A DNA stretch of 20,735 bases from IMG/VR virus record IMGVR_UViG_3300009502_000241, positions 1 to 20,735 of that record; one strand, written 5' to 3'. A program made the position numbers and the translations under genes. The notes under the pieces were generated by a model. That model had not been told where the DNA came from, ran no database searches, and saw nothing but the letters and a program-made list of their open reading frames with translations. Each line of letters begins with the position of its first letter. Positions within the stretch are counted from its first letter, which is position 1. Shown here piece by piece: positions 1 through 18,279 of this stretch. Origin of the DNA: a virus.

Positions 1-1027
1 ACCAGGAGTCTCCGCCGCCTCCGCCGCCGCCGCCGTAGCTGACGCTCGTTCCGCTGATGGACGATGAGACTCCGGGGCCGCCGTTCTTGGGGTCGCTGGG
101 GGAGCCGCCGGCGCCGCCGCCGCCGCCGCCTTCGAAGCTGTGCGGCAAAGCTGCGGTCTGGCCGCCTTCGCAGGACTGAGGCGCTCCCGATGGTCCGCCT
201 TCGCCTTGCTCGGGATTTGCCTTGAATCCGCCGTGTCCGCCGTAGGCGGTCAGTTCGGCAAAGGTCGTGTCTCCGCCGTTCTGGGTCGAGCCGGTAGCTG
301 CCGAGCCGGCGCCGCCGGCTCCTATCACGATCTCCATTACGCCGCTGAGACTGACGGTGTCCTCGACGACTCCGCCGCCGCCGCCGCCGCCGCCGTAGCA
401 TGTGCCAGGCGTGCCCTTGCCGCCGCTGCCGCTGCCGCCGACGAGTAGTACATCGGCCTCGTCGACGTCTTCCGGGGTCGTGAAGTCGCCGCTTTCGAGG
501 AACTTGACGACGGTATAGTCGCCGTCCTCGTAAGGGGTCTCGCCGGCGTAGGGCGACCAACTCATCATCTCCATCTCGCCGACGGAGAGATAGTAGAGAC
601 CGAAGCCGTAGTTGCCGGCCGTCACGTCGAGGCGGTAATAGAGGTACTCCGTCGTGTTGACGAACTGGTAGGTCTTCTTCGTTGCCCAGAGGCTTGCCCA
701 GTCGGTGACGTCGGAGTGGGAGTCGAGGGTGTCCCACGTGGAGCCGTCGTTGCTGCCCTTGAATGTCCACGTCTTCGGCGTCCACGTGCCGTCCGAGGTA
801 TCTCCCTGTGAGGCGATGGTGTACTGCGCGATGGCGACGGCCTCGGCGAACTGGTATTGCAGCCAGCCGCTCGTGGATGCGATTACCCAGCGGTCGCCGG
901 AGGTGGTGCCGTTGCTGTGGTTGAATGCGAGGTACGCCGAGAGAATGCTCTCGTCTGACGCCGAGGCGACACCGCTGGGGGCGGTGTCGCCGGTCATTGT
1001 CGGTATGAGGTTCTCGGAGTACGGCAT
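1..1027 (-). CDS. Discoidin-like plus glycine-rich tail protein, partial (C-terminus outside window)
   Basis: The frame opens at an ATG at 1027 and stays open to the left edge, giving at least 342 residues with no stop seen. Residues about 8-180 look like an F5/8 type C (discoidin) carbohydrate-binding domain: SAYLAFNHSNGTTSGDRW, then WLQYQFAEAVAIAQYTI, a TWTFKGSNDGSTWDTLD strand and YLYYRLDV. A link with DGDYTVVKFLESGDFTTPEDV follows. A glycine-rich domain begins near residue 196 (VLLVGGSGSGG), with an eight-glycine run, an IVIGAGGAG motif and further Gly runs. It is paralogous to the glycine-rich part of the gene at 3555-5498. The position distal to the hub-like gene suggests an exposed tail-tip or fibre protein that binds sugars on the host. 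That role is inferred from domains and place. The ribosome-binding site is weak. Confidence 0.8.
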   Translation of the reverse strand, partial: MPYSENLIPTMTGDTAPSGVASASDESILSAYLAFNHSNGTTSGDRWVIASTSGWLQYQFAEAVAIAQYTIASQGDTSDGTWTPKTWTFKGSNDGSTWDTLDSHSDVTDWASLWATKKTYQFVNTTEYLYYRLDVTAGNYGFGLYYLSVGEMEMMSWSPYAGETPYEDGDYTVVKFLESGDFTTPEDVDEADVLLVGGSGSGGKGTPGTCYGGGGGGGGVVEDTVSLSGVMEIVIGAGGAGSAATGSTQNGGDTTFAELTAYGGHGGFKANPEQGEGGPSGAPQSCEGGQTAALPHSFEGGGGGGAGGSPSDPKNGGPGVSSSISGTSVSYGGGGGGGGDSW

Positions 1028-1050: not shown

Positions 1051-1578
1051 TCACGGGTTCTCGATGCAGAGCTGGTACTCGCATCCGGTGTTCTGCGCCT
1101 GCGAGCTCGGCGTCACCATGCGCACGTAGACAGCCACGTAGTCATCCTCGACGTAGTCGGGGCTCGGCAGGGCTACGCCGGCGCCCTTGCTCGCTGCAGT
1201 CGAGAAGCTGCGGCCAGCCGGCGCCGTGTTCTCGTTGGTGAGCGCGGCCACCTCCGTGTTCTTGGCCGCGGCGAAGGCGAAGGCGTAGGTCTCACCGTCG
1301 GCGGTGTACGGGGAGCTGGGGTCGCGCGGCTGGTAGCCGATCCAGGCGACCGGCTCCGGCCAGCCGGCCACGTCGCCGCTCGTGTTCTGGATGTAGATGA
1401 CCCGGTAGCGAGTGATGCCGGTGCCGGCCTCGGTGCCGGTGACGTCGTCGAAGAGGTTGTTGAGGGCGGTCGCCGAGACTTCGACGCTAGACTTCGCGCC
1501 GCCGACGGAGATGCGCGGATCGGCGTTGCTGGCGCCGCCCGAGAGAAACGCTTTGAGGTCGGATGAGAGGACAGTCAT
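1051..1578 (-). CDS. Putative virion-associated protein, 175 aa
   Basis: Complete ORF with an ATG preceded by GGGAGA at suitable spacing. The protein has no signal peptide or membrane segment. Its N-terminal half contains ISVGGAKSSVEVSATALN, NLFDDVTGTEAGTG and then ITRYRVIYIQNTSGDV. I recall this pattern from small hypothetical proteins of many phage tail modules, but I cannot name a family with confidence. The C-terminus (DDYVAVYVRMVTP) is strand-rich, which suits an all-beta virion protein. It lies between the hub-like gene and the discoidin protein, 12 bp after the former and 23 bp before the latter, so it probably belongs to the tail-tip or fibre set. The function is otherwise unknown. 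Confidence 0.7.
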   Translation of the reverse strand: MTVLSSDLKAFLSGGASNADPRISVGGAKSSVEVSATALNNLFDDVTGTEAGTGITRYRVIYIQNTSGDVAGWPEPVAWIGYQPRDPSSPYTADGETYAFAFAAAKNTEVAALTNENTAPAGRSFSTAASKGAGVALPSPDYVEDDYVAVYVRMVTPSSQAQNTGCEYQLCIENP

Positions 1579-1590
1579 CTGGTCTCCCTT

Positions 1591-3558
1591 TCAGCCGGCG
1601 CTGCGCCGGAGGTCGAGTGATGTGGCGGACTTGGCACTGTTCGTCGGCGTCGTCGAGAGCGGCACGCCGACCGCGTTCGAGGGGAAGCGCGCGACGTATC
1701 CGGAGTGGCCGAGGTCGAGGCTTACGGTGTCGGCACCCACGTCCACGGAGACGCCCGTGACGACGGTATCGGCCGCCACTCCGGGGCCGGTAAGCAGACA
1801 GCCGGGACGCACGAGGCTGGCGCCGGCGATGGCCTTGAGAGTCACGGACCCGCAGCCCTGATTTGGACGCTGCTCGATGGCCACCGACTGTCCCATGCGC
1901 GCCGCGGCGAGGATGCCGCTCGCGCCGGTCCCGTCCACGAACACGACGCGATCGGTAGCGCGCGGCGTCCACCACTCATCGACGAGCTCGTAGACGCCGG
2001 CCGCATCCACGGTCAGGAATGACGGCGATGAGACCGCGAGCTTGCCCGCGACCGGCGTGGCGGCCGGCGCCATGTAGGAGACGAGCACGAGGTCGACGGC
2101 GCCCTCGCTGGTCGTGCCGGCGCCGGTCGTGTCGACGCCGGGCTCGTCGGTCAGGTCGTAGGCGCCGTCGGGCTTCTTGCGGATGCGCAGGACGCCTCCT
2201 TCCCACCAGCCGTAGGACATGTCGCTCGGGTAGAGGGCGAGCAGGTCGGCGACGGCCGCCGGCAGGGTCGTCGCGTTGCGGATCGCGATGGTCGTGCCGG
2301 CGGAGCCGTCGAGCGGCGGCGGCAGAATCATCGGCTTCACGTCGCAGCCAGGGACGAGGATGCGGAAGACATCGGCAAGGTCGTCACAGTCGCTCGCCGC
2401 GTTCGGCGCGTAGCCCTGAGCGCGTACCTGGAGCCCATAGATGAAGGCCCACTGTCCACGCTGTGCCATCAGCCGAGTGCGCCCGACCCACGCACCGCGG
2501 ATGACGTGCGCACTGGTCACGGCGTACATGTCGTCGAGGCTCTCGGGGAAGCGGATCGCCCTATAGGCCGCGTACCAGACAAGGTACTTGCAGGCCACGT
2601 CGATCGTGACACGCCCGCTGGAGTCGTACAGGCAGTGACCGAACTTGTAAATCAGGTGCGGGTCATTCTCCATTCCGTCGGGGCGGTCGGTGGGGAGGTC
2701 CGCGAGGTCGTCGCAGGCATAGAGCGCCATGAAACAGTTTGCGGGCGGCGCGGCGCCGTAGAGGCCGCTCCAGAGGTTCGTGTCGGGGTAGGTGGCGAAG
2801 TGGTTGACCTCGGCCTCTTCCGTGCCGTAGAAGTCGGCGTCCTCGCCGGCCGGGACCACGGGCGCGATGGGCGCGTCGTAGTCGGGCGTCGTGAGCGCAT
2901 CGATGGCTGCCTGACCGAGGTCGGCCACGGGGATGAAGCTCACGCTGCTGATGCGCTTCGACGTGGCGCCGCCGCCGATCTGGTAGTAGGCGGCGGTCCA
3001 CAGGGCTTTCGCTTTGGGAAAGTCGCTCGCGTGCCAGCCCGGCGGCGGCGTGTTGCCGACGTATGGCCGGTAGTCGGTGAGCGGCTCGCTCGTGTCGACG
3101 AGCACGAGGTCGGTGCCGGTGTCGGGTTCGATCGTCGGCCAGAAGAATGCGATCTTATCCGTGATCTCGACGTTTATCTGCCCGTCGGACCAGCCCTCCC
3201 AGCCGGAATCCACCGCGTGCCACTGGCCGAGGTCGCGGTCGATGAAGACGCCTTCGATGGTGCCGTTGCTCTTGAGGTCCTCGGCCGGACCCTTGCAGCT
3301 CACGTGGTAGAGCAGGCGCTCGCCGACCATCGCCGGGTCGCTGGCCGACATGACCTTGCCCTCGAATGATGTGACGCCTTCAAGCGTGATCGTGGCGACT
3401 TCGCCCTCAGCAGGCGGCGCCCCGTACTGGTCCCAGTCGGCGGTCCCGAATCCGAAGGCATCGACGTTCTTGACCTGCAGGTTGATGGCTCCGGGCGCGA
3501 TGTCCACGGATGTGCCAGGGATGAGGCGATGGGGGATCTCTCCGCGAGTGCCGCTCAT
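1591..3558 (-). CDS. Putative tail hub / baseplate-like protein, 655 aa
   Basis: I start this gene at the ATG at 3558, which overlaps the stop of the upstream gene as ATGA. A start 30 bp earlier is possible but would add only an Arg-rich leader (MPAHLRRDAR). Residues about 15-100 (LIPGTSVDIAPGAINLQVKN, TITLEGVTSFEGKVMSASDP, ERLLYHVSCKG) look like the beta-barrel start of hub proteins that frame a tail tip. A middle segment of about 200 residues is rich in Trp, Tyr and Asp, and about residues 440-500 carry MSYGWWEGGVLRIRKKPDGAYDL, written here only as a strand pair typical of hub domains. The C-terminus is beta-rich (LLTGPGVAADTVVTGVSVDV). The position after the tape measure and one adhesin supports a tail-tip role. 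No lysozyme or peptidase motif was seen. Confidence 0.6.
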   Translation of the reverse strand: MSGTRGEIPHRLIPGTSVDIAPGAINLQVKNVDAFGFGTADWDQYGAPPAEGEVATITLEGVTSFEGKVMSASDPAMVGERLLYHVSCKGPAEDLKSNGTIEGVFIDRDLGQWHAVDSGWEGWSDGQINVEITDKIAFFWPTIEPDTGTDLVLVDTSEPLTDYRPYVGNTPPPGWHASDFPKAKALWTAAYYQIGGGATSKRISSVSFIPVADLGQAAIDALTTPDYDAPIAPVVPAGEDADFYGTEEAEVNHFATYPDTNLWSGLYGAAPPANCFMALYACDDLADLPTDRPDGMENDPHLIYKFGHCLYDSSGRVTIDVACKYLVWYAAYRAIRFPESLDDMYAVTSAHVIRGAWVGRTRLMAQRGQWAFIYGLQVRAQGYAPNAASDCDDLADVFRILVPGCDVKPMILPPPLDGSAGTTIAIRNATTLPAAVADLLALYPSDMSYGWWEGGVLRIRKKPDGAYDLTDEPGVDTTGAGTTSEGAVDLVLVSYMAPAATPVAGKLAVSSPSFLTVDAAGVYELVDEWWTPRATDRVVFVDGTGASGILAAARMGQSVAIEQRPNQGCGSVTLKAIAGASLVRPGCLLTGPGVAADTVVTGVSVDVGADTVSLDLGHSGYVARFPSNAVGVPLSTTPTNSAKSATSLDLRRSAG

Positions 3559-5498
3559 GCGTGCGTCTCTTCGTAGGTGCGCGGGCACTGTTCGTCGCCG
3601 GATTCGTCGTTGTGCGTCATGTACTCAGGCAGGCGGCGGATCGTCACGTGCGGATCGTCGCAGAGGCAGACGGGCAGACCGAACTCGTTGTGCTCTGGGT
3701 CGGGGTCGGTGCCGGTGATGAGCGGATAGGTGACGAGGTCCTCGTCTGCCGTGCGGATGCGAATGACGACGATGCCGGAGCCGCCGTTGCCGGCCTCCAC
3801 GATGTAGGGAGGAGCGATGGCGAAGTTGTTGAATCCGCCGCAGCCGCCGCCGCCACTGTTGTCGGCGCCGTGCTGTCCGCTGGGGCCTTGGTAGCTGTAC
3901 CCGCCACCGCCGCCGTATCCCGGTTTGGACGCGTAGCCGGACCACGACCATCCTCCCGGCAGCCATGCCCCGCCGGCGCCGCCGCCTGAGTACCAGTCAA
4001 CAAACATTAACTGCTTGGCGGTTTCCTCGTACATGTGCCAGCCACGTATATCGCAGGGGCGCCCGTGCATCGCGTTGCAGGAGTACCCGGCCTCCATCTC
4101 GCCGCACTGGTCGTAGGTGAACCAGGGGAATCGCGCTTCGCCCTCGCCCTCGCCCCACCAGAACTGGTGCGCGCCGCCGCCACCTCCGCCGACGCAGACG
4201 GAGTAACCGCCGCTGTCGGCGGGCCGACCGTCGTAGCCACCGGCGTGCTCTACCACCCAGAACTTTTCGCCGGCATCGTTCTCCCAGAAGTCCACCGGGT
4301 CGCCGCTGGGGTAGCCGTTCTCACGAGCGTAGGCGTTGAACGACGCGACGGTGCCGTCCCCGTATGGGATGTCCGTGTCGGCCGCGTAGGGGGTCGCGGT
4401 CGCATGGCCGCCCGCTCGCTCGACGATGTCTGTCGCCTCGAGCCCATCGTACCCAGGGATGCGATCGTTCCACGGCAGGCCGCCGCCGCCGCTGCCTCCC
4501 GGGGCGCCGCGGACCGACTGGCCTGGCGTCACAAGATCCACGATCCACAGCTCGCCGCCGCGGCCTCCGCCCCTCGCCGTGAAGCCGGCGAACGAACTGT
4601 CACCGGCCACCTCATTGGGGCCGTCTGCACCGGAGCCGTCCCCGACGACGTGCGATAGCGTGCCGCCGGCGCCCACGATCACCTCGCCGTCGTTACCCCC
4701 GCCCGTGATGGTGACCTTGTGCAGGTCCTTCATCTCACCCGCGCCGCCGCCGCCGGCCGCGGAGTTGTTCGTCGCCCCGCCGGCGCCGCCGCCGGCTACG
4801 ATGAGCGTGTCGGCGTCGAGCGTTTCCTTCGCCGCGATTGTGAACTGACTCGATGCGCTGAATGTGTAGACGGTCCAGCCGTCGGCGCTCTTGCCGGCCA
4901 CCGGGCCCCCTTCCGAGAGGTTCAGCGCGCAGTCGATGGCGCGCAGCCGGTAGCGTTTCTTCTTGTTCGTCGTGCGGTCGAGGAATCGGCGCACGGCGTG
5001 CGACTTGGCCTGTACGGTGTCGTTCGCCCACACCACGCTGTCGGGCTGGTCCTGGTCGGCGTCGTAGACCATGTACGCGAGCAGGCCGGACTCGGCGTCG
5101 CAGGCGGCGTGCCAGGTCAGCAGCTTGCCCGTGCTTCTCGGGCGCACCTTGAAGTTGTCGGGCGGCGAGGGCGGCATGGTGTCTGCGCTGGCGAACGACC
5201 TCGTGGGGATGATGACCGGCACGCGCGCGCCGACCGGGATCGTGCCGCCGTCCTTGGTTCGCCCGACGACCCGGTACCAGACCATGAGGCCCTCGGGGGC
5301 GTCGGTGTCGAAGAAGGCCTCGGCGCGCGTCGTGCCGATGAGGATGCCCGTGAGTTCTGCGGGGTCGGCCGTTCGGTACACGTCGAAGCTCTCGAACGCC
5401 TTGCGCTTCAGATAGGCGCCGCCGGGGCCGCGGGCGAAGTGCGGACCCTGCCCAGAGTCCCATGCAATGAGAGCGCGGCCGGGGGCGGTCCAGTGCAT
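3555..5498 (-). CDS. Fibronectin-like and glycine-rich tail protein (adhesin-like), 647 aa
   Basis: The ATG at 5498 lies two bases after the tape measure stop. An in-frame start at 5558 would add an Arg/His-rich leader that is only the shadow of the tape measure end. Residues 1-90 and 110-205 look like two fibronectin type III-like modules (FDVYRTADP, VWYRVVGRTKDG; PPSPPDNFKVRPRSTGKLLTW, YRLRAIDCALNLSEGG). From about 225 a glycine-rich domain starts (DTLIVAGGGAGG), with VIVGAGG, GGGRGGE and many Gly runs, ending in GSGIVVIRI near 600. Inside it is an island rich in Trp, Tyr and Cys (about residues 420-510). This layout recalls glycine-rich phage adhesins in which variable loops project from a polyglycine core. 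Receptor binding is inferred. Confidence 0.75.
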   Translation of the reverse strand: MHWTAPGRALIAWDSGQGPHFARGPGGAYLKRKAFESFDVYRTADPAELTGILIGTTRAEAFFDTDAPEGLMVWYRVVGRTKDGGTIPVGARVPVIIPTRSFASADTMPPSPPDNFKVRPRSTGKLLTWHAACDAESGLLAYMVYDADQDQPDSVVWANDTVQAKSHAVRRFLDRTTNKKKRYRLRAIDCALNLSEGGPVAGKSADGWTVYTFSASSQFTIAAKETLDADTLIVAGGGAGGATNNSAAGGGGAGEMKDLHKVTITGGGNDGEVIVGAGGTLSHVVGDGSGADGPNEVAGDSSFAGFTARGGGRGGELWIVDLVTPGQSVRGAPGGSGGGGLPWNDRIPGYDGLEATDIVERAGGHATATPYAADTDIPYGDGTVASFNAYARENGYPSGDPVDFWENDAGEKFWVVEHAGGYDGRPADSGGYSVCVGGGGGGAHQFWWGEGEGEARFPWFTYDQCGEMEAGYSCNAMHGRPCDIRGWHMYEETAKQLMFVDWYSGGGAGGAWLPGGWSWSGYASKPGYGGGGGYSYQGPSGQHGADNSGGGGCGGFNNFAIAPPYIVEAGNGGSGIVVIRIRTADEDLVTYPLITGTDPDPEHNEFGLPVCLCDDPHVTIRRLPEYMTHNDESGDEQCPRTYEETHA

Positions 5499-5500
5499 GC

Positions 5501-7585
5501 TCAGAAGCCCGTGCCGGTGACGCGGGCGCCCATGCCGTCGAGCTCCGGCTTGAGCCAAGCGGCGAGGCGTTGCTTCTCGCGCGTGGAGGGCTCGCCGGTG
5601 AGCGTCTGCCAGGTCAGGGTGACATGCCTCTCAATCACGGTCGCGTGCGTCGGTGCGGCGGGCGCGGCGCCGCCTCCGAGGGCCGCCTGGGCGAAGCGGC
5701 CGACCTTGCTCTCGGGGACCACGTACTCGCCCTCGCCGCCCTCGGCGAGCACGACCGCAAGGCCACCCGGCCGTGGAGCGACCCATCCGCCGGAGGCCAT
5801 TTGGAAGCCGCCGCCCTTGTCGATGTGGCCGCCGCCCTGCAGTCCCCGGCGTCGCTGCAGCGCGTTGGCCGCGGCGTTTGCGGCCTGCCGCGCCTGGTCG
5901 CGCATGCCGGAGAAAGCAGACGTGACTTTGCCGATTTCGTTGAGCAGCTTCTCGGCGTTGACGCCGCCCATGCGGATGTCCTTGGCGGCTTCCCGGCGCA
6001 GCTGCGCGATGCGCTTCTCCGTGGCCGCGGCGGCCTGGTTGATTGCCGGCTTGAGCACGTCCTGCGGGCGCCAGTCCTTGAACATCGTCTTCATGAGCGC
6101 GTCGGCTTCCTTGATGGTGATGCCGAGCGAGGTCGCGATACGATCTCGGGTGGTTCGCAGCTCGGCGTCGGTGTGCTCTTTGTCGATGTTGCCGAGCGGA
6201 ATCTTCTTGGCGGCCAGCTCGCGGAGCTGCGTCACCTGCTTCATGGTGGCGGTGAAGGCCTTGCCGGACTGCGTTGCCGAGGCCGCGCCGAGGTCAACGA
6301 TGGCTTTGTCGATGACGGCCTTCGCGCGACGTGCCTCGTCCGCGAGAACCTTGGCCTGCGCCGCCCCCCACTGACCGGCAGCAAGCGCGGTCCCCGTGTT
6401 GCCGGCGGAACCGGCCATGCGCCCCATATTCAGGCCACCCGCCGCGGCCTGCTTCGCACCGGGACCCTCAGGCTTCGTGCCTCGGCGTACCCACTCCGCC
6501 AAGAGGATGCCGGCGCCCGCTGCGATGCCGACGAGGATGACTGGAGCTGCGGCGCCCGCCAGCGCGCCACCGGCCGCGCCAGCCCCGCTACCCGCCCCGG
6601 CCGCGCCCGGAATCAGGCTGCTGGCGACGACCTGGCCGCCGCCAGCGCCGGCCAGGTCGGCGAGGCCACCGGCCAGCTTTCCTCCGGCCAGCAGGCCCTT
6701 CATGGTCTTGAGCGCCGTGTTGATCGTGTTGAAGCCGCTGGCGATCTTGGCGCCGACAGCGAAGGCTCCGAGTCCGAGAGCGATGTACTTGAGGCTCCCG
6801 GCCAGGGGCGCCGCGGCCCGCTGCAGCTTCGTGAACATGCCCACCATGGAGGTAAGCTCGGGGATCACGCTCTTGCCGGCCTGCTGCAAGAAGCCGCGCC
6901 AGGCCTGCGAGAGGTCTGCTTGAGCGGCGGCACTCTTCTTGTAGTCGGCAAGGTCCGACTCGCTCATGATGGAACCCTGCTCCTTGAGCGCGCTGTTCAC
7001 CTTGGCGATGCTGGCCGGCGTCGCGTCGAGCCACTTCAGCATGGCCATGCCGCCCCTGCCAAAGAGCTTCATCATGAGAGCGGCGCGCTCGGTCTTGTCG
7101 GTCATCTGACTCATCTGGTCGCGGACCTTGGCCATGATCTCGCCGCCGGTCATGGTGCTCAGGTCGCTGATGGTGATGCCGAGCTTAGCGAATGCCTCGA
7201 TCGAGGCCTTGGTGCCGCCCTCGGCGGACTCGATCTGCTTGCTGAGCATGATCAGGCCACGCTGCCCGGCGACAGCATCGACGCCGAATCGCGACCACTG
7301 GCCGGAGAAGGTCGAAGCGGCCTCCGCCGAGATGTTCGTCAGCTTCGTGAGCGCGCTCGTCGCCGAGCCCAGCTTGTTGTACTCGAAGACGCCCTTGGCG
7401 ATGACGCCGCTGACGCTGGCGAAGCCGATGGCCGCGCCGGCGCTAGCCTTCTGCATGACGCCGCCCCAGCGCTTGAAGGCGCCGCTGCCAGCGGTCGCCT
7501 CCTTCTTCAGGGATGCGAGCTGCTTCTCGGCGCGCTGGATCTGCTTCATGTCGGCTTTGCCGTAGACCGAGAGGATGACGGCCAT
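5501..7585 (-). CDS. Tail tape measure protein, 694 aa
   Basis: This is the longest gene in the tail module. The N-terminus (MAVILSVYGKADMKQIQRAE, then helical KQLASLKKEA) is typical of siphophage tape measures. An Ala/Gly-rich helical body follows with many Lys and Gln. One hydrophobic segment around residues 330-370 (APVILVGIAAGAGILLAEWV) may be the membrane-inserting part. The C-terminal portion contains GGHIDKGGGFQMASGGWV and VVLAEGGEGEYVVPESK, a common tape measure ending. By the usual scaling of about 1.5 angstrom per residue, the tail would be near 100 nm, which is an inference. The start has AGAGAGG-type purines (AGAGAGG, about nine bases upstream). It lies two bases after the gp10-like gene. 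Confidence 0.9.
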   Translation of the reverse strand: MAVILSVYGKADMKQIQRAEKQLASLKKEATAGSGAFKRWGGVMQKASAGAAIGFASVSGVIAKGVFEYNKLGSATSALTKLTNISAEAASTFSGQWSRFGVDAVAGQRGLIMLSKQIESAEGGTKASIEAFAKLGITISDLSTMTGGEIMAKVRDQMSQMTDKTERAALMMKLFGRGGMAMLKWLDATPASIAKVNSALKEQGSIMSESDLADYKKSAAAQADLSQAWRGFLQQAGKSVIPELTSMVGMFTKLQRAAAPLAGSLKYIALGLGAFAVGAKIASGFNTINTALKTMKGLLAGGKLAGGLADLAGAGGGQVVASSLIPGAAGAGSGAGAAGGALAGAAAPVILVGIAAGAGILLAEWVRRGTKPEGPGAKQAAAGGLNMGRMAGSAGNTGTALAAGQWGAAQAKVLADEARRAKAVIDKAIVDLGAASATQSGKAFTATMKQVTQLRELAAKKIPLGNIDKEHTDAELRTTRDRIATSLGITIKEADALMKTMFKDWRPQDVLKPAINQAAAATEKRIAQLRREAAKDIRMGGVNAEKLLNEIGKVTSAFSGMRDQARQAANAAANALQRRRGLQGGGHIDKGGGFQMASGGWVAPRPGGLAVVLAEGGEGEYVVPESKVGRFAQAALGGGAAPAAPTHATVIERHVTLTWQTLTGEPSTREKQRLAAWLKPELDGMGARVTGTGF

Positions 7586-7587
7586 GC

Positions 7588-8094
7588 CTAGTACCTCTCT
7601 CCGGCCGCGTCGAGCTTGGCCTGCACCGCATGTTCGGCCTCGCCGATGGCTGCTTTCAGGTCGCGCTCAAAGACTGACTTGTGCTTGTCCCAGGCATCCC
7701 ACATGAAGCGCCCGGGCTTGCCGAAGCCGTCGAGCCACTTGACCATCGCCGCGCCCTGCGGCGTGATCGGGCCGCCGCTGCGCGAGCGCCCCTTGGTCCC
7801 GGCGAACTCGAAGATGGAGGTTTCCTTGTCCGCCGCCATGAGGCGCACGCCGACGCGCTTTCCTCGGCTGGAGGCGCGGATGCGGTAGCTCATGCGGTGT
7901 CCGGGAGGGCCGCTCGCGGAGGCGGCGCTCTTGACCTTGGTCAGGGACGCGCGAATCGTCTTGTTCATGCGCTTCAGCGCCTCGGGCTCTAGGGCGCGCA
8001 GCGCGGCGATGGTCTGCTCCAGGCCTTCGACGCGGATCTCCGCGGAGAAGCCCTTGCCGCTCGCCCCTGTCACCTTGCCGCTGTATCTGGTCAC
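7588..8094 (-). CDS. HK97 gp10-like tail completion protein, 168 aa
   Basis: The start is a GTG at 8094 overlapping the stop of a small upstream ORF as GTGA, with GGGAG about eight bases before. The protein has the family pattern: IRVEGLEQTIAALRALEPEALKRMNK, a helix with SLTKVKSAASASGPP, basic strands (YRIRASSRGKRVGVRLM), a FEFAGTKGRS loop and a C-terminal GRFMWDAWDKHKSVFERDLKAAI helix; each is quoted as a short part only. Members of this family act at the head-tail joint or in tail assembly. They normally sit between the adaptor and the tube gene. Here it lies after the chaperones and directly before the tape measure, which is unusual. A generic minor tail protein is the alternative. Confidence 0.7.
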   Translation of the reverse strand: MTRYSGKVTGASGKGFSAEIRVEGLEQTIAALRALEPEALKRMNKTIRASLTKVKSAASASGPPGHRMSYRIRASSRGKRVGVRLMAADKETSIFEFAGTKGRSRSGGPITPQGAAMVKWLDGFGKPGRFMWDAWDKHKSVFERDLKAAIGEAEHAVQAKLDAAGERY

Positions 8095-8183
8095 CGCAGC
8101 CGCTCCCTAGCCTTCGCCATCAACGCCTGCCGCTTCGCGGCCTTCTCACGCTCCTCCAGCCGGACCATTACGGCGGCCAGCAC
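8091..8183 (-). CDS. Candidate small protein, 30 aa
   Basis: A short frame runs from a GTG at 8183 to a TGA at 8091 and encodes MLAAVMVRLEEREKAAKRQA followed by LMAKARERLR. It begins one base after the stop of the chaperone T frame, has GGAG eight bases upstream, and its stop overlaps the next start as GTGA. It thus exactly fills what would otherwise be a 90-bp hole in a tightly packed region. The product would be one charged amphipathic helix. No family is recognised. It could instead be just a leader that couples translation to the next gene. Confidence 0.45.
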   Translation of the reverse strand: MLAAVMVRLEEREKAAKRQALMAKARERLR

Positions 8184-8184
8184 C

Positions 8185-8687
8185 TCAGCGTCTCCGCGTC
8201 AGGCGGTCACCGAGCGCGCATAGCCGCGCGTCACGGGCGTCCTCGCGGGCTGCTTCGCCGCCGCCGCCGTAGAGCAGCTCAGCCATGGCATCGAAGACGC
8301 CGGGAGCGAATCGCGAGACCCCGAGCAGGTCACAGAGGTCACCGACCGGCTGCAGGGAGTCGAGGGCCACCCGGGCTAGGCTTCGCTCGGTGGCCCGTCG
8401 GATTCCCCCTCGGCCCCGGCCGCGTCTTCGTCTTCGTCGTCGTCGGGCAAGGTCACGAGGTCGAGCCAGTCGACCCACGTGCCGTTCGTGTGCGGCTCGC
8501 CGCTGCGCCTGGCTGCGAGAAACACGCCGTACATGCCGCTGCGCTCCGCCCGGAGTGCCTCGTCGTCCGGGTACTCGCTGCGCGCCCAGTCCTGCGCGCG
8601 GATCGAGTCGCCGAGCGTGACTACGATCGCCCTCTCTTCCAAGGTATCGACGTAGATCACGAAGATCTCTCTGCTGCTGATTCCCAT
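8185..8687 (-). CDS. Tail assembly chaperone G-T fusion, by probable -1 frameshift (167 aa)
   Basis: A second frame, -1 relative to the G chaperone, overlaps its end and continues to a TGA at 8185. A shift at the GGGGGAA run (8403-8409) would join 95 G residues to 72 T residues. The T part begins IRRATERSLARVALDSLQPV and continues with GDLCDLLGVSRFAPGVFDAM and AELLYGGGG. Siphophages commonly make such a pair as G and G-T, and both act with the tape measure during tail assembly. The place, after the tube gene and before the tape measure, fits. The T frame could instead be translated alone from a GTG at 8370 (61 aa), eight bases past the G stop, but no Shine-Dalgarno precedes it. An ATG at 8478 in this frame would give a poly-Arg start and is unlikely. 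Confidence 0.6.
8376..8687 (-). CDS. Tail assembly chaperone G, 103 aa
   Basis: Small acidic protein starting at an ATG with GGGGGAGG about eight bases upstream and ending in a TAG at 8376. It shows the usual pattern of G-type chaperones in high-GC phages: SIRAQDWARSEYPDDEALRA, MYGVFLAARRSG, WVDWLDLVTLP, then an acidic tail (DDDEDEDAAGAEGESD). It follows the tube gene by 27 bp. It is the unshifted product of the pair described at 8185-8687. In the known systems the G product is made in excess and binds the tape measure before the tube polymerises around it. Confidence 0.75.
   Translation of the reverse strand: MGISSREIFVIYVDTLEERAIVVTLGDSIRAQDWARSEYPDDEALRAERSGMYGVFLAARRSGEPHTNGTWVDWLDLVTLPDDDEDEDAAGAEGESDGPPSEA
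8403..8409 (-). promoter_or_regulatory. Candidate -1 ribosomal frameshift site GGGGGAA
   Basis: In the G frame the codons read GAG GGG GAA. A one-base slip back re-pairs the P-site glycine tRNA perfectly (GGG to GGG), while the A site goes from GAA to GGA. It lies near the end of G and well upstream of its stop, inside the overlap with the open T frame. It is not a canonical XXXYYYZ heptamer, but runs of G before A are plausible slippery sites in GC-rich phages. No better heptamer was found in the overlap. Confidence 0.5.
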
Positions 8688-8702
8688 GCTCTGCCTCCCC
8701 CT

Positions 8703-8718
8703 TGAGGATTCGGCTCAG
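8703..8718. repeat. Stop-codon-proximal element, copy 1 (tube gene)
   Basis: Plus strand TGAGGATTCGGCTCAG covers the tube protein stop codon and the bases just after it. It matches the element at the capsid gene stop (14432-14445) except for a two-base insertion. It can form a small TGAG/CTCA hairpin. Confidence 0.4.
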
Positions 8719-10046
8719 TAGGGCCCATGGGCGTTCACGACCGTGGCCGTGAGCACCGAAGCCGGCGTGCTGCCGTAGCAGCGGCCGGTCAGGGTCAGCT
8801 CAGCCGGGCCGCCCTTGGGGTCGGCGTCCGGCTCGCCGGCCTTCCATGCGACGCGCGTCGCCGCCAGCTCGAGCGAATCGGGAGCGTTGGCGAACACCAG
8901 GTCGAGCTCGCCGTAGGGCACGGTCCCCGTGATGGCTGTGCCGTCCACAGCGCCCGTGAGGAGTAGCCGCACAGGCAGGAGGTCGGGGACGCGCACCTTG
9001 AGCTCGACGTCGATCTCGAGGGCGGCCTCGAAGATGTCGCCGGCCAGCATGCTGCCGCTGTAGATGTCGGCGGCGAGGTTGCGCTTGATGGTCAGCGAAC
9101 CGCCGAGGATCGCAGTGCCGCCGGTGTAGCCGTTGCCGTCGAGGTCGATCGTCGCGGTCGTGAGGTGGATGCCCCGGAAGTAGTCGAGCAGGGCCTCGTC
9201 AAGACCGGGCGTGTAGTCCGCTGATGCGTAGTCGGCATCGCAGCCGGCCCACGTGGCGTTGACCTTGATCGGCTGGTTGCCCTCCCACTCAATCCTGAGC
9301 TCGTCGAGCTTGCAGTCGACGGCGGCCTTGAGGTCGGAGTCCTTCTTGCCGAACACGGTCGCCCAGGGGACCGTGGCGGCCGGCGTGATGACGTGCGAGT
9401 AGGTGCCGCCGGAGCCCGCCGCGGCGCCGCCGGCGAGGTTCGTGGCCACGAGCGCGGTGACGACGCCGACGCCCGAGTTGCCGGGCGCGAGGGATGCCGT
9501 GATGAGTGCCTTGGCCTCGGCGTCCGCGTTGATCGCGGCGCGGACCTGGCTGGCGGTGGAGGTGATGGCCTTGCCGGAGCCCGTGGCGAGGTTGACGGTG
9601 ATGGCGCTGCTGGCCACGCCCACGCTGAGCTCCGCGTCGGCCTCGTCCGGGGCGTCGAGATGGACGGTGATCGAGTTGCCGGCGGTGCCGCCCGCCATGG
9701 CGAGGAAAGTGAGATCGTTGTTCGCGCCGGCGAGCGCGGTGGTGAGCACGGCTTTCACGGCGGGCGCGGTGCCGCTGCTCGAGTCGATGTCTCCAAGCGC
9801 GGCGTACAGCAGGCCGGCGACGGACTGCGGCCAGGCACGCGACTCGTAGTCGGCGGCGGCGGCGGCGGAAGAACGGAACTCGCCGGGGCCGACGATCTCG
9901 GCGGAGGTGAGCTCGTCCTCGGTCTGCTCCAGCGCGAAGGTCACGAGGGAGCCGCCGGCGACAGGCCCCATGAAATCGGGCTGAGTCTTGGCAGCGCCCT
10001 TGGCCGACTGGAGGGCGAATCCGACGGCGGACAGCTTCATGTTCAT
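8715..10046 (-). CDS. Major tail (tube) protein with an inserted domain, 443 aa
   Basis: The ATG at 10046 is preceded by GAGGAG seven bases upstream. Residues 1-90 and about 208-443 form a tail tube-type protein: VGFALQSAKGAAKTQPDFMG, VTFALEQTEDEL, RAWPQSVAGLLYAALGD, then TYSHVITPAATVPWATVFGK, DCKLDELRIEWEGNQPIKVN and SLTIKRNLAADIYSG. Residues about 99-207 are an inserted module (ALAGANNDLTFLAMAGGTAG, NSITVHLDAPDEADAELSVG, SAITVNLATG, ASQVRAAINADAEAKALITA, then a GTGVV-like strand and LAGG). I recall this repeat-like module from other phage structural proteins. It would project from a loop of the tube. The gene sits upstream of the chaperones and tape measure, as expected. Confidence 0.85.
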   Translation of the reverse strand: MNMKLSAVGFALQSAKGAAKTQPDFMGPVAGGSLVTFALEQTEDELTSAEIVGPGEFRSSAAAAADYESRAWPQSVAGLLYAALGDIDSSSGTAPAVKAVLTTALAGANNDLTFLAMAGGTAGNSITVHLDAPDEADAELSVGVASSAITVNLATGSGKAITSTASQVRAAINADAEAKALITASLAPGNSGVGVVTALVATNLAGGAAAGSGGTYSHVITPAATVPWATVFGKKDSDLKAAVDCKLDELRIEWEGNQPIKVNATWAGCDADYASADYTPGLDEALLDYFRGIHLTTATIDLDGNGYTGGTAILGGSLTIKRNLAADIYSGSMLAGDIFEAALEIDVELKVRVPDLLPVRLLLTGAVDGTAITGTVPYGELDLVFANAPDSLELAATRVAWKAGEPDADPKGGPAELTLTGRCYGSTPASVLTATVVNAHGPY

Positions 10047-10095
10047 GCGGACTCCTCATCAGGGCCTGTGGTAGCTACCCGTCCATCCTCGCGGC

Positions 10096-10106
10096 GGCGT
10101 CACCCG
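10096..10106 (+). promoter_or_regulatory. Junction motif GGCGTCACCCG
   Basis: Exact GTCACCC core in the 69-bp gap between the tail terminator-like gene and the tube gene, 50 bp before the tube start. Same orientation as all other copies. Confidence 0.5.
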
Positions 10107-10115
10107 AGAGGGCCT

Positions 10116-10595
10116 TCATGTTTGCCGCCATCGACAGAGGTAAGCGGTCGTCGCGTAGGCGACGCGCAACGCGAGCCCATACATGCGGCTGTGCTCGTCG
10201 GGCGCCGCCTCGTTGCCGGCGACGGCCGTCACGTAGGCCTCGTCGACCACGCCGCCGAGCGTCGGGTCGACGCTCACGGCGTTCTCGACGATCCGCGACA
10301 GCGCGAGGGCGCGATCGCGGGCGGTGGCCATGTCGGCGGCGGTCCAGAGCACGCTGATCCGCACCTCGATCTCGCCGAGCTCGTCGCGCTGCAGGCCGCC
10401 GGAGATGAGCCGCGGCATGGTCACGTTGAACTCGCCACCGATCCAGATGTGTTCGGCCTGCAGGCCGCCCGCCGGGTAGCCCACGGAGAGCGGCGTCACC
10501 TCACCGGAGGACGTGAGCTGCGTGGCGATCGCCGTCCCGAGCGCGTCCTGGACGGCGGCCGCCTTGACGACGAAGCCCTTGCCAGCGTTCGTCAT
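10116..10595 (-). CDS. Tail terminator-like protein, 159 aa
   Basis: The ATG at 10595 overlaps the adaptor stop as ATGA. No good Shine-Dalgarno is seen, so translation is probably coupled. The protein starts with a helix (VVKAAAVQDALGTAIATQLT) and continues with strands: HIWIGGEFNVTMPRL, GEIEVRISVLWTAADMATAR, SRIVENAVSVDPTLGGVVDE and YGLALRVAYATTAYL. A helix followed by a beta sheet, with the sequence VEV-type strands and a C-terminal variable strand, matches the general look of tail terminator proteins (gpU or Ne-type). The position, right before the tube gene, agrees. The assignment rests on pattern and context; a head-tail stopper is possible, since no separate stopper gene was found. Confidence 0.65.
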   Translation of the reverse strand: MTNAGKGFVVKAAAVQDALGTAIATQLTSSGEVTPLSVGYPAGGLQAEHIWIGGEFNVTMPRLISGGLQRDELGEIEVRISVLWTAADMATARDRALALSRIVENAVSVDPTLGGVVDEAYVTAVAGNEAAPDEHSRMYGLALRVAYATTAYLCRWRQT

Positions 10596-11449
10596 GCGAC
10601 GCGCGGGCGGCGGCGCCCGAAGTCGGTGATCACGGCGTCGACCTCGGGGATGCCGGTGGGCCTGTCGGGGCCGGCCACGCTGACGCGAAAGAAGCCCACG
10701 TCTGTAGCCTCGACGGTGGCGCGAGAGGAGAGCGCGCTGCGCACGAGGTACTCACGGGCGAGGAGCATGGCAGCCTGCACGACCGGCGCGTCCGGGTAGT
10801 CGAGGCCGTGCTTGTAGAAGACTTCGACTACGGCGCCGCTCTCAAAGTCGTAGGCGTCGCCGCGCGTCACGCGGCCCCACTCGCGCACGTCGAGGGCGGC
10901 GAGCTCGTCGGCAGTGAATGCCGTGCCGTCCACCGTGAGGCTGGTCACGCTGCGCACGGCGTTGTCGGGCAGGCACAGGGTGTCTGAGCCGTTGCCGGCC
11001 AGCACCACGCGACGGGCCCGCGGCACGAAGGCGACGCGGCAGGCGCGTTCGAGGCGCTGTTCTGCGGCAGTGCGGGCGGCGCGCATCTTGGCGTCGGGGT
11101 AGGTGGTGGCACTGGCGAAGGCGGCGTCGAAGGCGCGCATCTCGGCGACCTCGAAAAGGTAGCCGCCGCAGAGTTCGATGAGGGACTGCCACTCCTTCGT
11201 CTCCGACGACTTCTTGCCGGTCCACGTGCAGGTGTAGGTGTCGAGCGCGGAGAGCACGCTGTAAGCGGCCGAGTAGGTGATGCCGCTCACCTTGCCGGTG
11301 GCCGCGGTCGATGCAAGGACGGCCGTGCCGGCGCCGTTCTTGATCGCGATCGTCCAGGGCGTCGTAGAGGTGAACAGGGCGCCCGCCTCGTCGGGGGTCG
11401 CCACTTCGAGGGCGTAGGTGCCACTGGTGACGAGACGCAGGCGCTCCAT
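10592..11449 (-). CDS. Head-tail adaptor (gp6-like) with an extra N-terminal domain, 285 aa
   Basis: Residues about 101-285 resemble HK97 gp6-type adaptors: helices FDAAFASATTYPDAKMRAAR and AEQRLERACRVAFVPRARRV, a strand region with LCLPDNAVRSVTSLTVDGTA, AVVEVFYKHGLDYPDAPVVQ and AAMLLAREYLVRSALSSRAT, then VGFFRVSVAGPDRPTGIPEV at the end. Such proteins form a ring under the portal. Residues 1-100 (LVTSGTYALEVATPDEAGAL, WTIAIKNGAGTAVLAS, ALDTYTCTWTGKK) are an all-beta, Ig-like segment that adaptors of usual size (about 100-200 aa) do not need. It may be a fusion with a virion surface domain. It starts three bases after the stop of the decoration-like gene. Confidence 0.7.
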   Translation of the reverse strand: MERLRLVTSGTYALEVATPDEAGALFTSTTPWTIAIKNGAGTAVLASTAATGKVSGITYSAAYSVLSALDTYTCTWTGKKSSETKEWQSLIELCGGYLFEVAEMRAFDAAFASATTYPDAKMRAARTAAEQRLERACRVAFVPRARRVVLAGNGSDTLCLPDNAVRSVTSLTVDGTAFTADELAALDVREWGRVTRGDAYDFESGAVVEVFYKHGLDYPDAPVVQAAMLLAREYLVRSALSSRATVEATDVGFFRVSVAGPDRPTGIPEVDAVITDFGRRRPRVA

Positions 11450-11951: not shown

Positions 11952-11962
11952 GGCGTCACCCG
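11952..11962 (+). promoter_or_regulatory. Junction motif GGCGTCACCCG
   Basis: Exact GTCACCC core that overlaps the stop codon of the glycosyltransferase-like gene, 53 bp before the start of the decoration-like gene. The extended sequence is identical to the copy at 10096. Confidence 0.5.
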
Positions 11963-12546
11963 CGCCCGGAGCCGAAGACCTTGCCCTCGCCGCCGCGCCA
12001 CGGCGGTTCGTCCGCGTCCTCGAGGTGAGCGATGGTGAGAAGGCCCTTCAGCGGCACGGGGTCGGCCTGCGTGACCATGACCTCGAAGCCCGTCGGCCAG
12101 AGGTAGCGCGACTCATGCAGCCAGTCGGTGCGCAGCAGCGCGCAGCTCGTCGTCCACATGTCGAAGTGGTAGGCGTCGTGCTGCGGCACGCCGGCCATCA
12201 CGGGATGAGTGCCATCTGCGTGCGCGAGCAGGACCTCGAGGGTCTGCGGCGGGCAGATGACATCGGTCTCGATGCAGGCGATGTGCTCGCAATCGAGGTC
12301 GTGGGCGCGGCGGACGATGAGCTGCCAGCACATCTCGATGGTGTCCCAGAAGTCGGGCATCGGCTCGACGTGCGCGGTCTCGACGCCGAGAGAGCGCAGC
12401 TTTCGCGTGTACGAGAGCGTCCCTGGTGTGTTGTCGACGAGGAAGAGGTCGCGGTCGGGATACGTGAACGCCTTGTAGGCGGCGAGGTAGGCCGGGAGCG
12501 CGTAGTCCTTGCCGCTGTAGGTCGGAGCTGCTACCAGCACGGTCAT
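11956..12546 (-). CDS. Small glycosyltransferase-like protein, 196 aa
   Basis: I start at the ATG at 12546, which overlaps the acetyltransferase stop as ATGA. A longer reading from 12630 adds an Arg-rich leader that only shadows the upstream gene. The protein looks like a GT-A fold: a first strand and loop MTVLVAAPTYSGKDYALPAY, a second strand with LFLVDNTPG, then HIACIETDVICPPQTLEVLL, where ETD at residues 93-95 stands where a metal-binding DxD would be, followed by PVMAGVPQHDAYHF and a late His in TIAHLED (174). Family 2-type enzymes move a sugar from a nucleotide-sugar. It is shorter than usual, so the acceptor-binding part is minimal. It probably acts with the acetyltransferase on a virion protein or a surface glycan. 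The target is unknown. Confidence 0.65.
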   Translation of the reverse strand: MTVLVAAPTYSGKDYALPAYLAAYKAFTYPDRDLFLVDNTPGTLSYTRKLRSLGVETAHVEPMPDFWDTIEMCWQLIVRRAHDLDCEHIACIETDVICPPQTLEVLLAHADGTHPVMAGVPQHDAYHFDMWTTSCALLRTDWLHESRYLWPTGFEVMVTQADPVPLKGLLTIAHLEDADEPPWRGGEGKVFGSGRG

Positions 12547-13049
12547 CGGAGTGACTCCAGGAAGGCGTCGACGGGGCCGGAGAGCAGGTGCGCGCAGGCC
12601 TCGATGCGCTGCCGCTCCCAGTCCCACCAACGGACCTCGAGCAGCTCGGCGATCTGCGGCTCGCTGAAGCGGTAGCGCAGGAGCCGCGCCGGGTTGCCTA
12701 TCATGACGGCGTAGGGGGGCACGTCGCTGGCGACCACGGCGGCCGCGCCGATCACGGCGCCGTCACCGATCGTGACGCCGGAGAGGATGACCGCGCCCTG
12801 GCCGATCCACACGTCGCTGCCGATGACCACGTCGCCCTTGGAGAAGCCGTTGACCAGGGCCGCGCCCACGCCGAGCTCGCAGAAGGGGTAGCTGGCGACG
12901 GTGTCGATGTGGTGCTCGCCGCCGAGGAAGATGGTCACGTCCTCGGCGATGGAGCAGTACTTGCCGACGGTGCAGACGGCGCCCTGGTAGTCGAAGACGA
13001 CGGTGGGCCTGCCGTAGGTGTAGGAGCCGTAGGTGTAGGTGGTGGTCAC
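12543..13049 (-). CDS. Hexapeptide-repeat O-acetyltransferase, CatB/Vat type, 168 aa
   Basis: A left-handed beta-helix acetyltransferase that uses acetyl-CoA. Visible features are VGKYCSIAEDVTIFLGGEHH at residues 28-47, then SYPF (53-56), GDVVIGSDVWIGQGAVILSG (72-91), VTIGDGAVIGAAAVVASDVP and PYAVMIGNPARLLRYRF at the end of the helix. The second His of GEHH (His47) aligns with the catalytic His of Vat/CatB enzymes. Family members acetylate antibiotics or sugars. Next to a glycosyltransferase and inside a head operon, sugar modification is more likely than drug resistance, which is an inference. The start is a GTG at 13049 with no clear Shine-Dalgarno, odd for this operon; the HNH gene just upstream may have changed the leader. 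Confidence 0.85.
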   Translation of the reverse strand: MTTTYTYGSYTYGRPTVVFDYQGAVCTVGKYCSIAEDVTIFLGGEHHIDTVASYPFCELGVGAALVNGFSKGDVVIGSDVWIGQGAVILSGVTIGDGAVIGAAAVVASDVPPYAVMIGNPARLLRYRFSEPQIAELLEVRWWDWERQRIEACAHLLSGPVDAFLESLR

Positions 13050-13065: not shown

Positions 13066-13076
13066 GGGGGTCACTC
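13066..13076 (+). promoter_or_regulatory. Weak junction motif GGGGGTCACTC
   Basis: Degenerate copy (GTCACTC) in the gap between the HNH endonuclease and the acetyltransferase, 17 bp before the acetyltransferase start. It has the same orientation as the exact copies. Confidence 0.3.
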
Positions 13077-14292
13077 AGCAGAGGCGGCCGGCGAACTCGG
13101 GATCGTCAATCACATGGGCGAGGCCGTTCTCTCTGAGGCAGCGCTCAAGAAGAATAATCCTCCAGTTGGCCTCGCTGAGTTCACGAATAACGCGAGCGTG
13201 CTGGCGATGGTGATCACGGCGCGTCGTTGCGAGCATGAGATTCTTGATACGGTTGTCGTCCTTCTTCCCGTTGATGTGGTGCACATCGTCGCTGCTCGAT
13301 AGGGGATGCCCAAGCCACAGAGCCATCACGGCTCGATGCTCCATGATGCGCCCCTTGCCCCCGCGGCCGAACATCGGCTCGAGCAGAGCGACTTCCTCCG
13401 CGGAAAAGAAAGTCCGACAAACAGAGACGTACCCGGACTTGTTGACACTCCGGTTCGGTCTTCCTTCGTAGGGCCACTTGAGCCCAGCTTTCTTCAGTGT
13501 CTTCTTCTGAGCCCAATGCCACTCTCGCAACTTGGCCACCGCGTTATTCGGGCTACGTGCCCAGGCTGCGCCTGACCCTGAGCGACGGACCTTTGACCAA
13601 TCGACCTCCCAAGAAGAGCATGCGCAAGACAACGGTATTGCGAATCCCTCCTTGCGCATGGCGCCTGCGGCGACCAGATGCCACTCTCTCGCCGATGGCT
13701 GCCATGAAAGCGGGTTTCGTGCCCAGACCTTCTGCCCCGCCGCTCCCGGCCGGTCAAGGTCTATCTCCCATGCCCTGCCCCCGTACACAGATTCCTTCGC
13801 CGCAGCTTCTCTTGCCGCAGCCCACTCATCCCGGTGTCTCTCCAAGAAGGCACGTCTCATACACTGCTTTGAGCAGTAGCGTTGATTCTTCGCCTTGGGA
13901 AGAAACACACGTCCGCATTGCCGGCACGTGATCTCCGGGTAGTTGACACGCGGTTCGTGTATCTCTCTCCAGCGCCGGTGCGACTCTCTGGCGTCTTCCT
14001 TGTGGTTCGCAGTCCTGCAGGCCTCAGAACAGTAGAGTCGAGGGCGCCCGTGTTCCCCTCTTGGGGGTAGATCGGCCCCGCATTTCAGGCAGACTTGCGA
14101 CCACTCCTGTTTCAGGCTGAGCCCGAGTCGATTTGCACGGTGCTCGACGGAGCAGGCCGAACGCCCAAGTTCGGATGCGAGTGTTCTCGCCCCAAGATGG
14201 GAGCCAGCGATAAGGCACTGTGTCTCCTCTCGCGTCCAACATCTGGGGCGGCAGACCGTGGTGGTGGTGACGGAGTTGTGAGACTCAGACAT
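13075..14292 (-). CDS. HNH endonuclease with Myb-like and two zinc-finger segments, 405 aa
   Basis: Probable homing endonuclease. Order of parts: residues about 18-60, a Myb/GcrA-like helix-turn-helix (CWTREETQCLIAG, RTLASELGRSACSVEHRANR); a first CxxC-CxxxC finger (Cys68, 71, 88, 92); a second one (Cys123, 126, 140, 144); a long Trp-rich middle; and an HNH_3-type nuclease at about 314-366 (RIMEHRAVMALWLGHPL, DDVHHINGKKDDNRIKNL, DHHRQHA), with catalytic His338/339 and Asn347. It has a strong GGGAGG six bases before the ATG. Base use is less GC-rich than its neighbours: 34 of 60 G+C at 13201-13260 against 46 of 60 at 12721-12780. It separates the capsid gene from the rest of the head operon, typical of a mobile intruder. 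A free-standing DNA-packaging HNH is less likely, since those sit next to terminase. Confidence 0.85.
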   Translation of the reverse strand: MSESHNSVTTTTVCRPRCWTREETQCLIAGSHLGARTLASELGRSACSVEHRANRLGLSLKQEWSQVCLKCGADLPPRGEHGRPRLYCSEACRTANHKEDARESHRRWREIHEPRVNYPEITCRQCGRVFLPKAKNQRYCSKQCMRRAFLERHRDEWAAAREAAAKESVYGGRAWEIDLDRPGAAGQKVWARNPLSWQPSAREWHLVAAGAMRKEGFAIPLSCACSSWEVDWSKVRRSGSGAAWARSPNNAVAKLREWHWAQKKTLKKAGLKWPYEGRPNRSVNKSGYVSVCRTFFSAEEVALLEPMFGRGGKGRIMEHRAVMALWLGHPLSSSDDVHHINGKKDDNRIKNLMLATTRRDHHRQHARVIRELSEANWRIILLERCLRENGLAHVIDDPEFAGRLC

Positions 14293-18265: not shown

Positions 18266-18279
18266 GGGGGCTGTCACCC
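18266..18279 (+). promoter_or_regulatory. Junction motif GGGGGCTGTCACCC
   Basis: Exact 14-base copy overlapping the large terminase stop codon, 48 bp before the portal start. It is identical to the copy at 16411. Confidence 0.55.

Follow-up and report, generated by a model that had tools for sequence, protein, structure and literature searches.

The window analysed here, 20,735 bases, is the whole of the virus record IMGVR_UViG_3300009502_000241 in IMG/VR, and its genes follow a siphophage-type order on the minus strand. Our subject is the open reading frame (ORF) at 3555..5498, which encodes a protein with a long glycine-rich domain. This domain differs sharply between the window and a second phage that is nearly identical to it elsewhere, and within it conserved stretches alternate with variable ones. 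We hold with moderate confidence that the protein is a siphophage tail-tip adhesin with a recombined Gly_rich_2 domain, and that a Trp/Cys-rich island, which an initial annotation had put forward as the receptor-contacting part, combines a variable loop with a conserved base hairpin. If this is correct, the two phages provide a natural experiment in an uncultivated phage group, being alike in nearly all of their sequence except the glycine-rich stretches.

Relatives were sought by scans of IMG/VR and of genome contigs. After removal of copies, three other alleles of the ORF were found, making four with that of the window: L001 (IMG/VR 3300021075_000001), L016 (IMG/VR 3300044987_003178) and L005, the contig CAIWOY010000101.1 in a metagenome-assembled genome (MAG) of the Phycisphaerales. 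The four-allele counts omit L002, a truncated near copy of L001, L017, which equals L016 over the 3 kb compared, and further loci from the same contigs. Because a sequence pattern inside the island led to L016, counts are given both with and without it. The initial annotation's ORF is real, with orthologues in these relatives, and its main parts are as follows.

3555..5498, minus strand: the ORF under study, ATG at 5498, 647 amino acids (aa), directly behind the tape-measure ORF
4878..5498, minus strand: N-terminal part, residues 1-207, beta-rich
3777..4787, minus strand: variable glycine-rich cassette, residues 238-574
3589..4785, minus strand: tract differing from L005, with the first difference at 4785 (residue 238) and the last at 3589 (residue 637)
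3558..3752, minus strand: conserved C-terminal tail, residues 583-647
L001:5410-7386 (658 aa), L005:6001-7863 (620 aa), L016:3401-5278 (625 aa): orthologues of the ORF

Judged by its nucleotide alignment, L005 is practically the window's own phage. Over window positions 1320-3749 and 4799-11100 the two agree at 8689 of 8732 positions with zero gaps (about 99.5% over 8.7 kb), identity between the remainder of the L005 contig and 11463-20735 is 99.2%, and the outer ends of the alignment, counted apart, are identical at 620 of 681 positions. Across window 3750-4798, identity to L005 is 609 of 947 positions (64.3%), with 123 gap columns in addition. The left edge of the differing tract is abrupt: the sequences are identical from 4922 to 4786, and differences start at 4785, in residue 238, within the first Gly run. 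On the right side the differences, most of them in third positions, fall into two stretches, 3754-3720 and 3639-3589, within the conserved C-terminal tail. Residues 1-237 of the protein are identical to those of L005 (237/237), and residues 238-574, with 139 of 301 identical, are no closer to L005 than to the distant phage L016 (154/313). This pattern suggests that a tract of about 1.0-1.2 kb was replaced by homologous recombination with imported DNA. It is the entire glycine-rich domain that has the look of an exchanged cassette, and this speaks for a role in adhesion. Elsewhere in the alignment with L005, further clusters of differences lie at 7799-7898 (11 in one 100-column bin) and at 11199-11398 (15 and 20 in two bins).

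Over residues 1-213, identity is 100% to L005, 88% to L001 and 28% to L016, and a second count of the N-terminal part gives 31% for L016; over residues 575-647, it is 95% for L005, 86% for L001 and 77% for L016. The N-terminal part is probably, on slight evidence, FN3-like: its matches to neogenin FN3 profiles are at chance level (E-values of 0.41-0.92, among 6 at E up to 10), and an AlphaFold2 model of the 647-residue protein, poor as a whole, gives it strands, with a block predicted local distance difference test (pLDDT) score of 55-73 for residues 31-100.

The sole Pfam match of the protein, in a scan with E up to 0.1, is Gly_rich_2 (PF21722) over residues 217-444, and its score of 31 bits against a curated gathering cut-off of 24.3 places it in the family. 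Among the orthologues, L005 scores 64.7 bits and L016 35.0, and L001 lies slightly under the cut-off at 22.3. A sister Gly_rich_2 domain is encoded by a second ORF of L001, and its AlphaFold model reached a predicted template modelling (TM) score of 0.68 and a mean pLDDT of 63, with the outer strands mostly at 76-95 and the stretches 107-153 and 174-202 under 50. The best matches of this model in the PDB are the Pam3 fibre 7ypx_A (Foldseek E 7.9e-8; VIA Z 16.5, root-mean-square deviation (rmsd) 2.8, 177 aligned) and the Bxb1 tail tip 9d93_Qb (E 1e-6; VIA Z 15.9, rmsd 3.3, 183 aligned), with ALK/LTK domains far lower at Z of about 7. Foldseek's own superposition on 7ypx_A is loose (rmsd 8.8, TM 0.54). 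The sister model has 269 matches in BFVD at E 0.001 or better; among the 50 listed, the name glycine-rich domain-containing protein is frequent, and one BFVD match is the glycine-rich protein of Halorubrum phage HF2 (Q8V6M2). The adhesin idea of the initial annotation thus holds up at the level of the domain: two phages otherwise about 99.5% identical differ sharply in it, and the model of its sister resembles phage tail fibre and tail-tip proteins of known structure.

The base segments of the sister model were transferred to the cassette through an alignment (A11), which gave the following predicted layout.

4797..4877, minus strand: base strands, residues 208-234, mapped from the sister-domain model
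4677..4733, minus strand: base hairpin, residues 256-274, mapped from the sister-domain model
4575..4598, minus strand: base hairpin, residues 301-308, mapped from the sister-domain model
4062..4574, minus strand: predicted loops, residues 309-479, the longest variable stretch
3990..4061, minus strand: predicted third base hairpin, residues 480-503, model pLDDT there 56-64
3774..3989, minus strand: predicted loops, residues 504-575, variable with insertions and deletions (indels)
3753..3773, minus strand: closing base strand, residues 576-582 (IVVIRIR), mapped from the sister-domain model

Conservation follows this layout. Within residues 238-580, identity at non-Gly columns is 0.56 in the base (51 columns) versus 0.20 in the loops (211 columns) for three alleles, and 0.61 (51 columns) versus 0.21 (201 columns) for four; none of 342 circular shifts reached the difference between base and loops. 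Gly columns are retained while the segments between them vary. By non-Gly identity, three blocks of 20 residues stand out as conserved, 258-277, 298-317 and 478-497 (0.54, 0.46 and 0.57 in three alleles, with other blocks at 0.07-0.30), together with the closing strand at 578-580.

The two peptides on which the initial annotation had based the island are present in the protein, HQFWWGEGEGEARFPWFTYD at residues 444-463 and GYSCNAMHGRPCDIRGWHMY at residues 471-490, and they are flanked by Gly runs at 437-442 and 505-507.

4110..4169, minus strand: island peptide 1, residues 444-463, early part variable with indels, aromatic cluster at its end in four alleles
4029..4088, minus strand: island peptide 2, residues 471-490, overlapping the conserved block

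The enrichment in aromatic residues and Cys that was claimed for them does not go beyond chance. Residues 420-510 hold 19 W, F, Y or C among 91, a richer stretch of the same length (23) exists in the same protein, and a 91-residue stretch as rich arose in 875 of 5000 whole-protein shuffles and 488 of 5000 shuffles of the domain. Trp alone is unremarkable (5/91, reached in 4700/5000 protein and 4554/5000 domain shuffles), and Cys is mildly concentrated, with 4 of the domain's 5 (787/5000 domain and 3004/5000 protein shuffles). The most favourable cut tried, in which His was added and the count confined to 444-510 (19/67), was matched in 301 of 5000 shuffles of the protein and 128 of 5000 of the domain.

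When relatives are aligned, the island falls into two parts. Residues 444-457 vary and contain indels, and residues 478-510 are conserved in sequence while other regions vary, an outcome that the initial annotation had itself named as refuting its proposal and that holds for this half. The stretch 478-510 is among the most conserved non-Gly stretches in the cassette: no window of 310 scores higher in four alleles, and 3 of 310 do so in the three without the motif-found L016. Residues 480-503 carry the motif C-[DN]-I-x-G-W-x-x-[YW]-E-E in four alleles. The variability of 444-463 is ordinary, since windows of the same length are more conserved in 175 of 323 cases (four alleles) and 209 of 323 (three); blocks 278-297 and 538-577 are more variable in both counts, and 318-397 is about as variable (0.19-0.28 versus 0.19 in three alleles, 0.16-0.22 versus 0.24 in four). 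The conserved half of the island thus falls on the predicted third base hairpin. This half is probably scaffold, and the variable loops are the likelier contacts. An aromatic and Cys-rich patch in a glycine-rich adhesin need not be a binding site; half of this one looks like scaffold.

Taken together, these data suggest a protein in which a conserved N-terminal part, probably FN3-like, and a conserved C-terminal tail would hold a Gly_rich_2 domain at the siphophage tail tip. The domain would be built as in gp24 of cyanophage Pam3, with a beta-sandwich base whose strand connections have become glycine-rich segments ending in loops; the chain topology of the model implies that the base side would face the phage and the tips would be distal. 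Phages of the group would replace the entire glycine-rich domain by recombination, crossing over within the first Gly run on one side and within the conserved C-terminal tail on the other; the recognition surface would change, and the virion would otherwise remain largely as it was. The island would not be one unit but a variable loop (444-479) followed by an enlarged third base hairpin (480-503), the latter conserved because it is structural.

We considered whether the Trp/Cys island could itself be the part that touches the receptor, with the rest as scaffold and a sub-type common to the window and L016 defining the receptor. Residues 456-535 do have a history of their own: they are 70% identical to the distant L016 and 51% to the near-identical L005, and of 1000 column bootstraps, 999 place the window nearer to L016 than to L005 there, compared with 286 for residues 238-455 and 835 when the cassette is taken whole. 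This implies that exchange probably also occurs below the level of the whole cassette. The aromatic residues near 457-464 are also kept in kind in four alleles of four. However, the conserved stretch 478-510 falls on the predicted base hairpin, some other segments are more variable than the island, and the discovery of L016 by a pattern inside this very segment favours similarity there; we regard a receptor-contacting island as unlikely, if still credible. A glycine-rich domain that evolves fast at the surface without binding the host, serving in decoration or in attachment to particles or mucus, and whose exchange is neutral or otherwise driven, seems to us improbable. It would leave the second Gly_rich_2 ORF, paired with F5/8C or laminin-G-like domains, as the possible true receptor-binding protein, yet a bounded replacement in a tail gene of a near-identical genome would usually mark the part that recognises the host, to judge from cases such as that in the accessible portions of PMC8651126.

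Two further explanations concern the origin of the cassette difference. The metagenome-assembled genome that contains L005 also includes, on a different contig (L014), another glycine-rich variant of the second locus, which points to strain mixtures and could make the L005 cassette an assembly chimera between strains. We think this very unlikely, given that both cassettes are full-length open frames and that L001 and L016, in independent records, vary in the same manner; a chimera would, moreover, still require a second real allele. A localised variable region in a tail gene also resembles the targets of diversity-generating retroelements, so that the cassette might owe its diversity to such an element or to similar targeted mutagenesis instead of exchange. 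The many indels (123 gap columns) and the part of the cassette common to a distant phage make this extremely unlikely, and a further count against it is that a reverse transcriptase (PF00078) was found in none of three records, possibly fragments (the window and the contigs of L001 and L016).

Several observations weigh against the tail-tip adhesin with an exchanged domain. The number of distinct alleles found is only four. AlphaFold2, run with four sequences, gave the glycine-rich domain of the 647-residue protein a pLDDT of about 20, and because this model is uninformative the fold rests on the sister domain. In the sister model, the hairpin at 157-168, to which the island maps, has a pLDDT of only 56-64, and the alignment behind the model contains the cassettes, so that model and conservation are not fully independent. 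The alignment of the island to the hairpin is moderately supported: it is the best place in three of four cassettes, and not in the window's own copy, 315-518 of 2000 shuffles with Gly held fixed score as high as the alignment of island to sister domain, and hhalign aligns only the first 78 columns of the domain. Finally, according to the accessible portions of PMC9229481, the type of adhesin showed no link with infection in the case of one Haloferax strain.

Known systems offer partial parallels (papers cited here as far as their text was accessible). Membership of the T-even gp38 type, to which the initial annotation compared the domain, is not borne out: Pfam holds a GP38 family model, and the scan returned Gly_rich_2 alone. 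As in gp38 of S16, PP01 and T2, Gly-rich motifs alternate with variable segments, but the segments are longer than gp38's short loops, the protein size differs, and the gene sits behind a tape-measure gene. The beta-rich N-terminal part, with strands, stands in place of the helical attachment domain with tryptophans by which gp38 docks on gp37. In the T-even proteins, variable loops between the glycine-rich motifs set receptor specificity (PMC6851490, PMC12892980). The gp38 core is a beta-helix at the centre, from which ten polyglycine II helices continue as a lattice of three layers. We use gp38 as an analogy only; it is not among the listed fold matches of the sister model, which excludes nothing.

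The modelled build appears closer to Pam3 gp24 (tail fibre of a cyanophage, PDB 7YPX/7YFW), onto which the sister domain fits over most of its length. The Pam3 glycine-rich domain has a conserved stem and a hypervariable tip (PMC9608196), comparable to the conserved base and variable loops found here (0.56-0.61 versus 0.20-0.21). The loop stretch 309-479 is very long in our protein, at 171 residues, and Pam3 has an alpha-helical docking domain where ours has a beta-rich N-terminal part. The sister domain also appears to fit by fold the Bxb1 tail-tip protein (PDB 9D93 chain Qb), no description of which was found in two papers on other mycobacteriophages. Hafunaviruses of one species carry different groups of glycine-rich adhesins and have different host ranges (PMC8651126); those are archaeal myoviruses with a separate fibre gene, and host range was measured there, whereas our comparison is of sequence. 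Relative to other Gly_rich_2 domains, the cassette as cut is large, 379 aa versus 230-251 aa in complete sister domains.

The modelled sister domain belongs to a second glycine-rich locus, represented in the window by one feature.

2..1027, minus strand: second ORF with a Gly_rich_2 domain, open where the record ends; its N-terminal part is F5/8C-like, under the Pfam cut-off

The F5/8C-like part matches a PHROG tail protein (E 1.4e-28). Counterparts of this ORF are found at L005:10375-12225, L001:9902-12151 and L014:3249-4883, and their added domains differ. L001 has a laminin-G-like domain in place of the F5/8C-like one. L005 has two Gly_rich_2 matches, with an F5/8C domain at 381-509 of L005:10375-12225 inside the second, which by its coordinates covers about 285-561 of the frame, and in the third variant, in MAG contig L014, no added domain was found. 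Because these counterparts also differ, the phage group has two variable glycine-rich loci. It is possible, and we suggest it tentatively, that Gly_rich_2 acts as a plug-in platform in which whole cassettes, sub-cassettes (456-535) and even complete domains of ligand-binding type are swapped or inserted between glycine segments, in two separately variable adhesin genes. Behind the Gly domain, L001:9902-12151 and L014:3249-4883 carry repeats of the form TSRHxV, seen by eye.

Searches beyond these relatives returned little. The whole protein had no match in annotated phages or plasmids at E up to 0.001, the L016 protein none in phages at E up to 0.01, and the L014 Gly domain none in phages at E up to 1; phmmer found no matching PDB chain at E up to 1, and a profile of the sister domains gave no hit among PDB sequences. 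With the island alone, five phage records appeared at E 2-9, four of Xanthomonas phage and one of Variovorax; the Xanthomonas match examined (one of the four) sits outside the glycine-rich part of its protein, and the four were set aside as chance. The Variovorax record, matched by the island alone, is unannotated. The pattern HGxxC[DN]IxGW occurs in four stretches of IMG/VR, three of them in the contigs of L001, L016 and its copy L017; the frame of the fourth is not glycine-rich, and it was taken as chance. The alignment suggests that the island corresponds to the S-[DS]-I-[TS]-G segment in the sister domains, but this was dropped as not significant in Gly-fixed shuffles. In literature searches, no description of the protein or its phage appeared among the papers listed. 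The placement of L005 in a Phycisphaerales bin is a weak hint to the host. Since the protein profile matched 2 of 101 relatives of the MAG and the Pfam family 2 of 200, the MAG itself included in each case, the phage is apparently not a common provirus among these relatives.

The remainder of the window encodes a portal and a major capsid protein of HK97 type, along with the following genes.

18274-19764, minus strand: large terminase, with tblastn matches in 827 phage records, every one below 60% identity
5501-7585, minus strand: tape-measure protein, PHROG match

The tape-measure protein is 41% identical overall to that at L001:3619-5406, and the last 100 or so residues are nearly identical. 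Between the head and tail genes, within 11956-13049, lie a hexapeptide acyltransferase ORF (PF00132, E 8.4e-12) and a glycosyltransferase-2-like ORF (E 0.015, under the cut-off). The ORF at 13075-14292 is HNH-like by eye, and its local G+C is about 0.60-0.61, compared with mostly 0.63-0.74 elsewhere.

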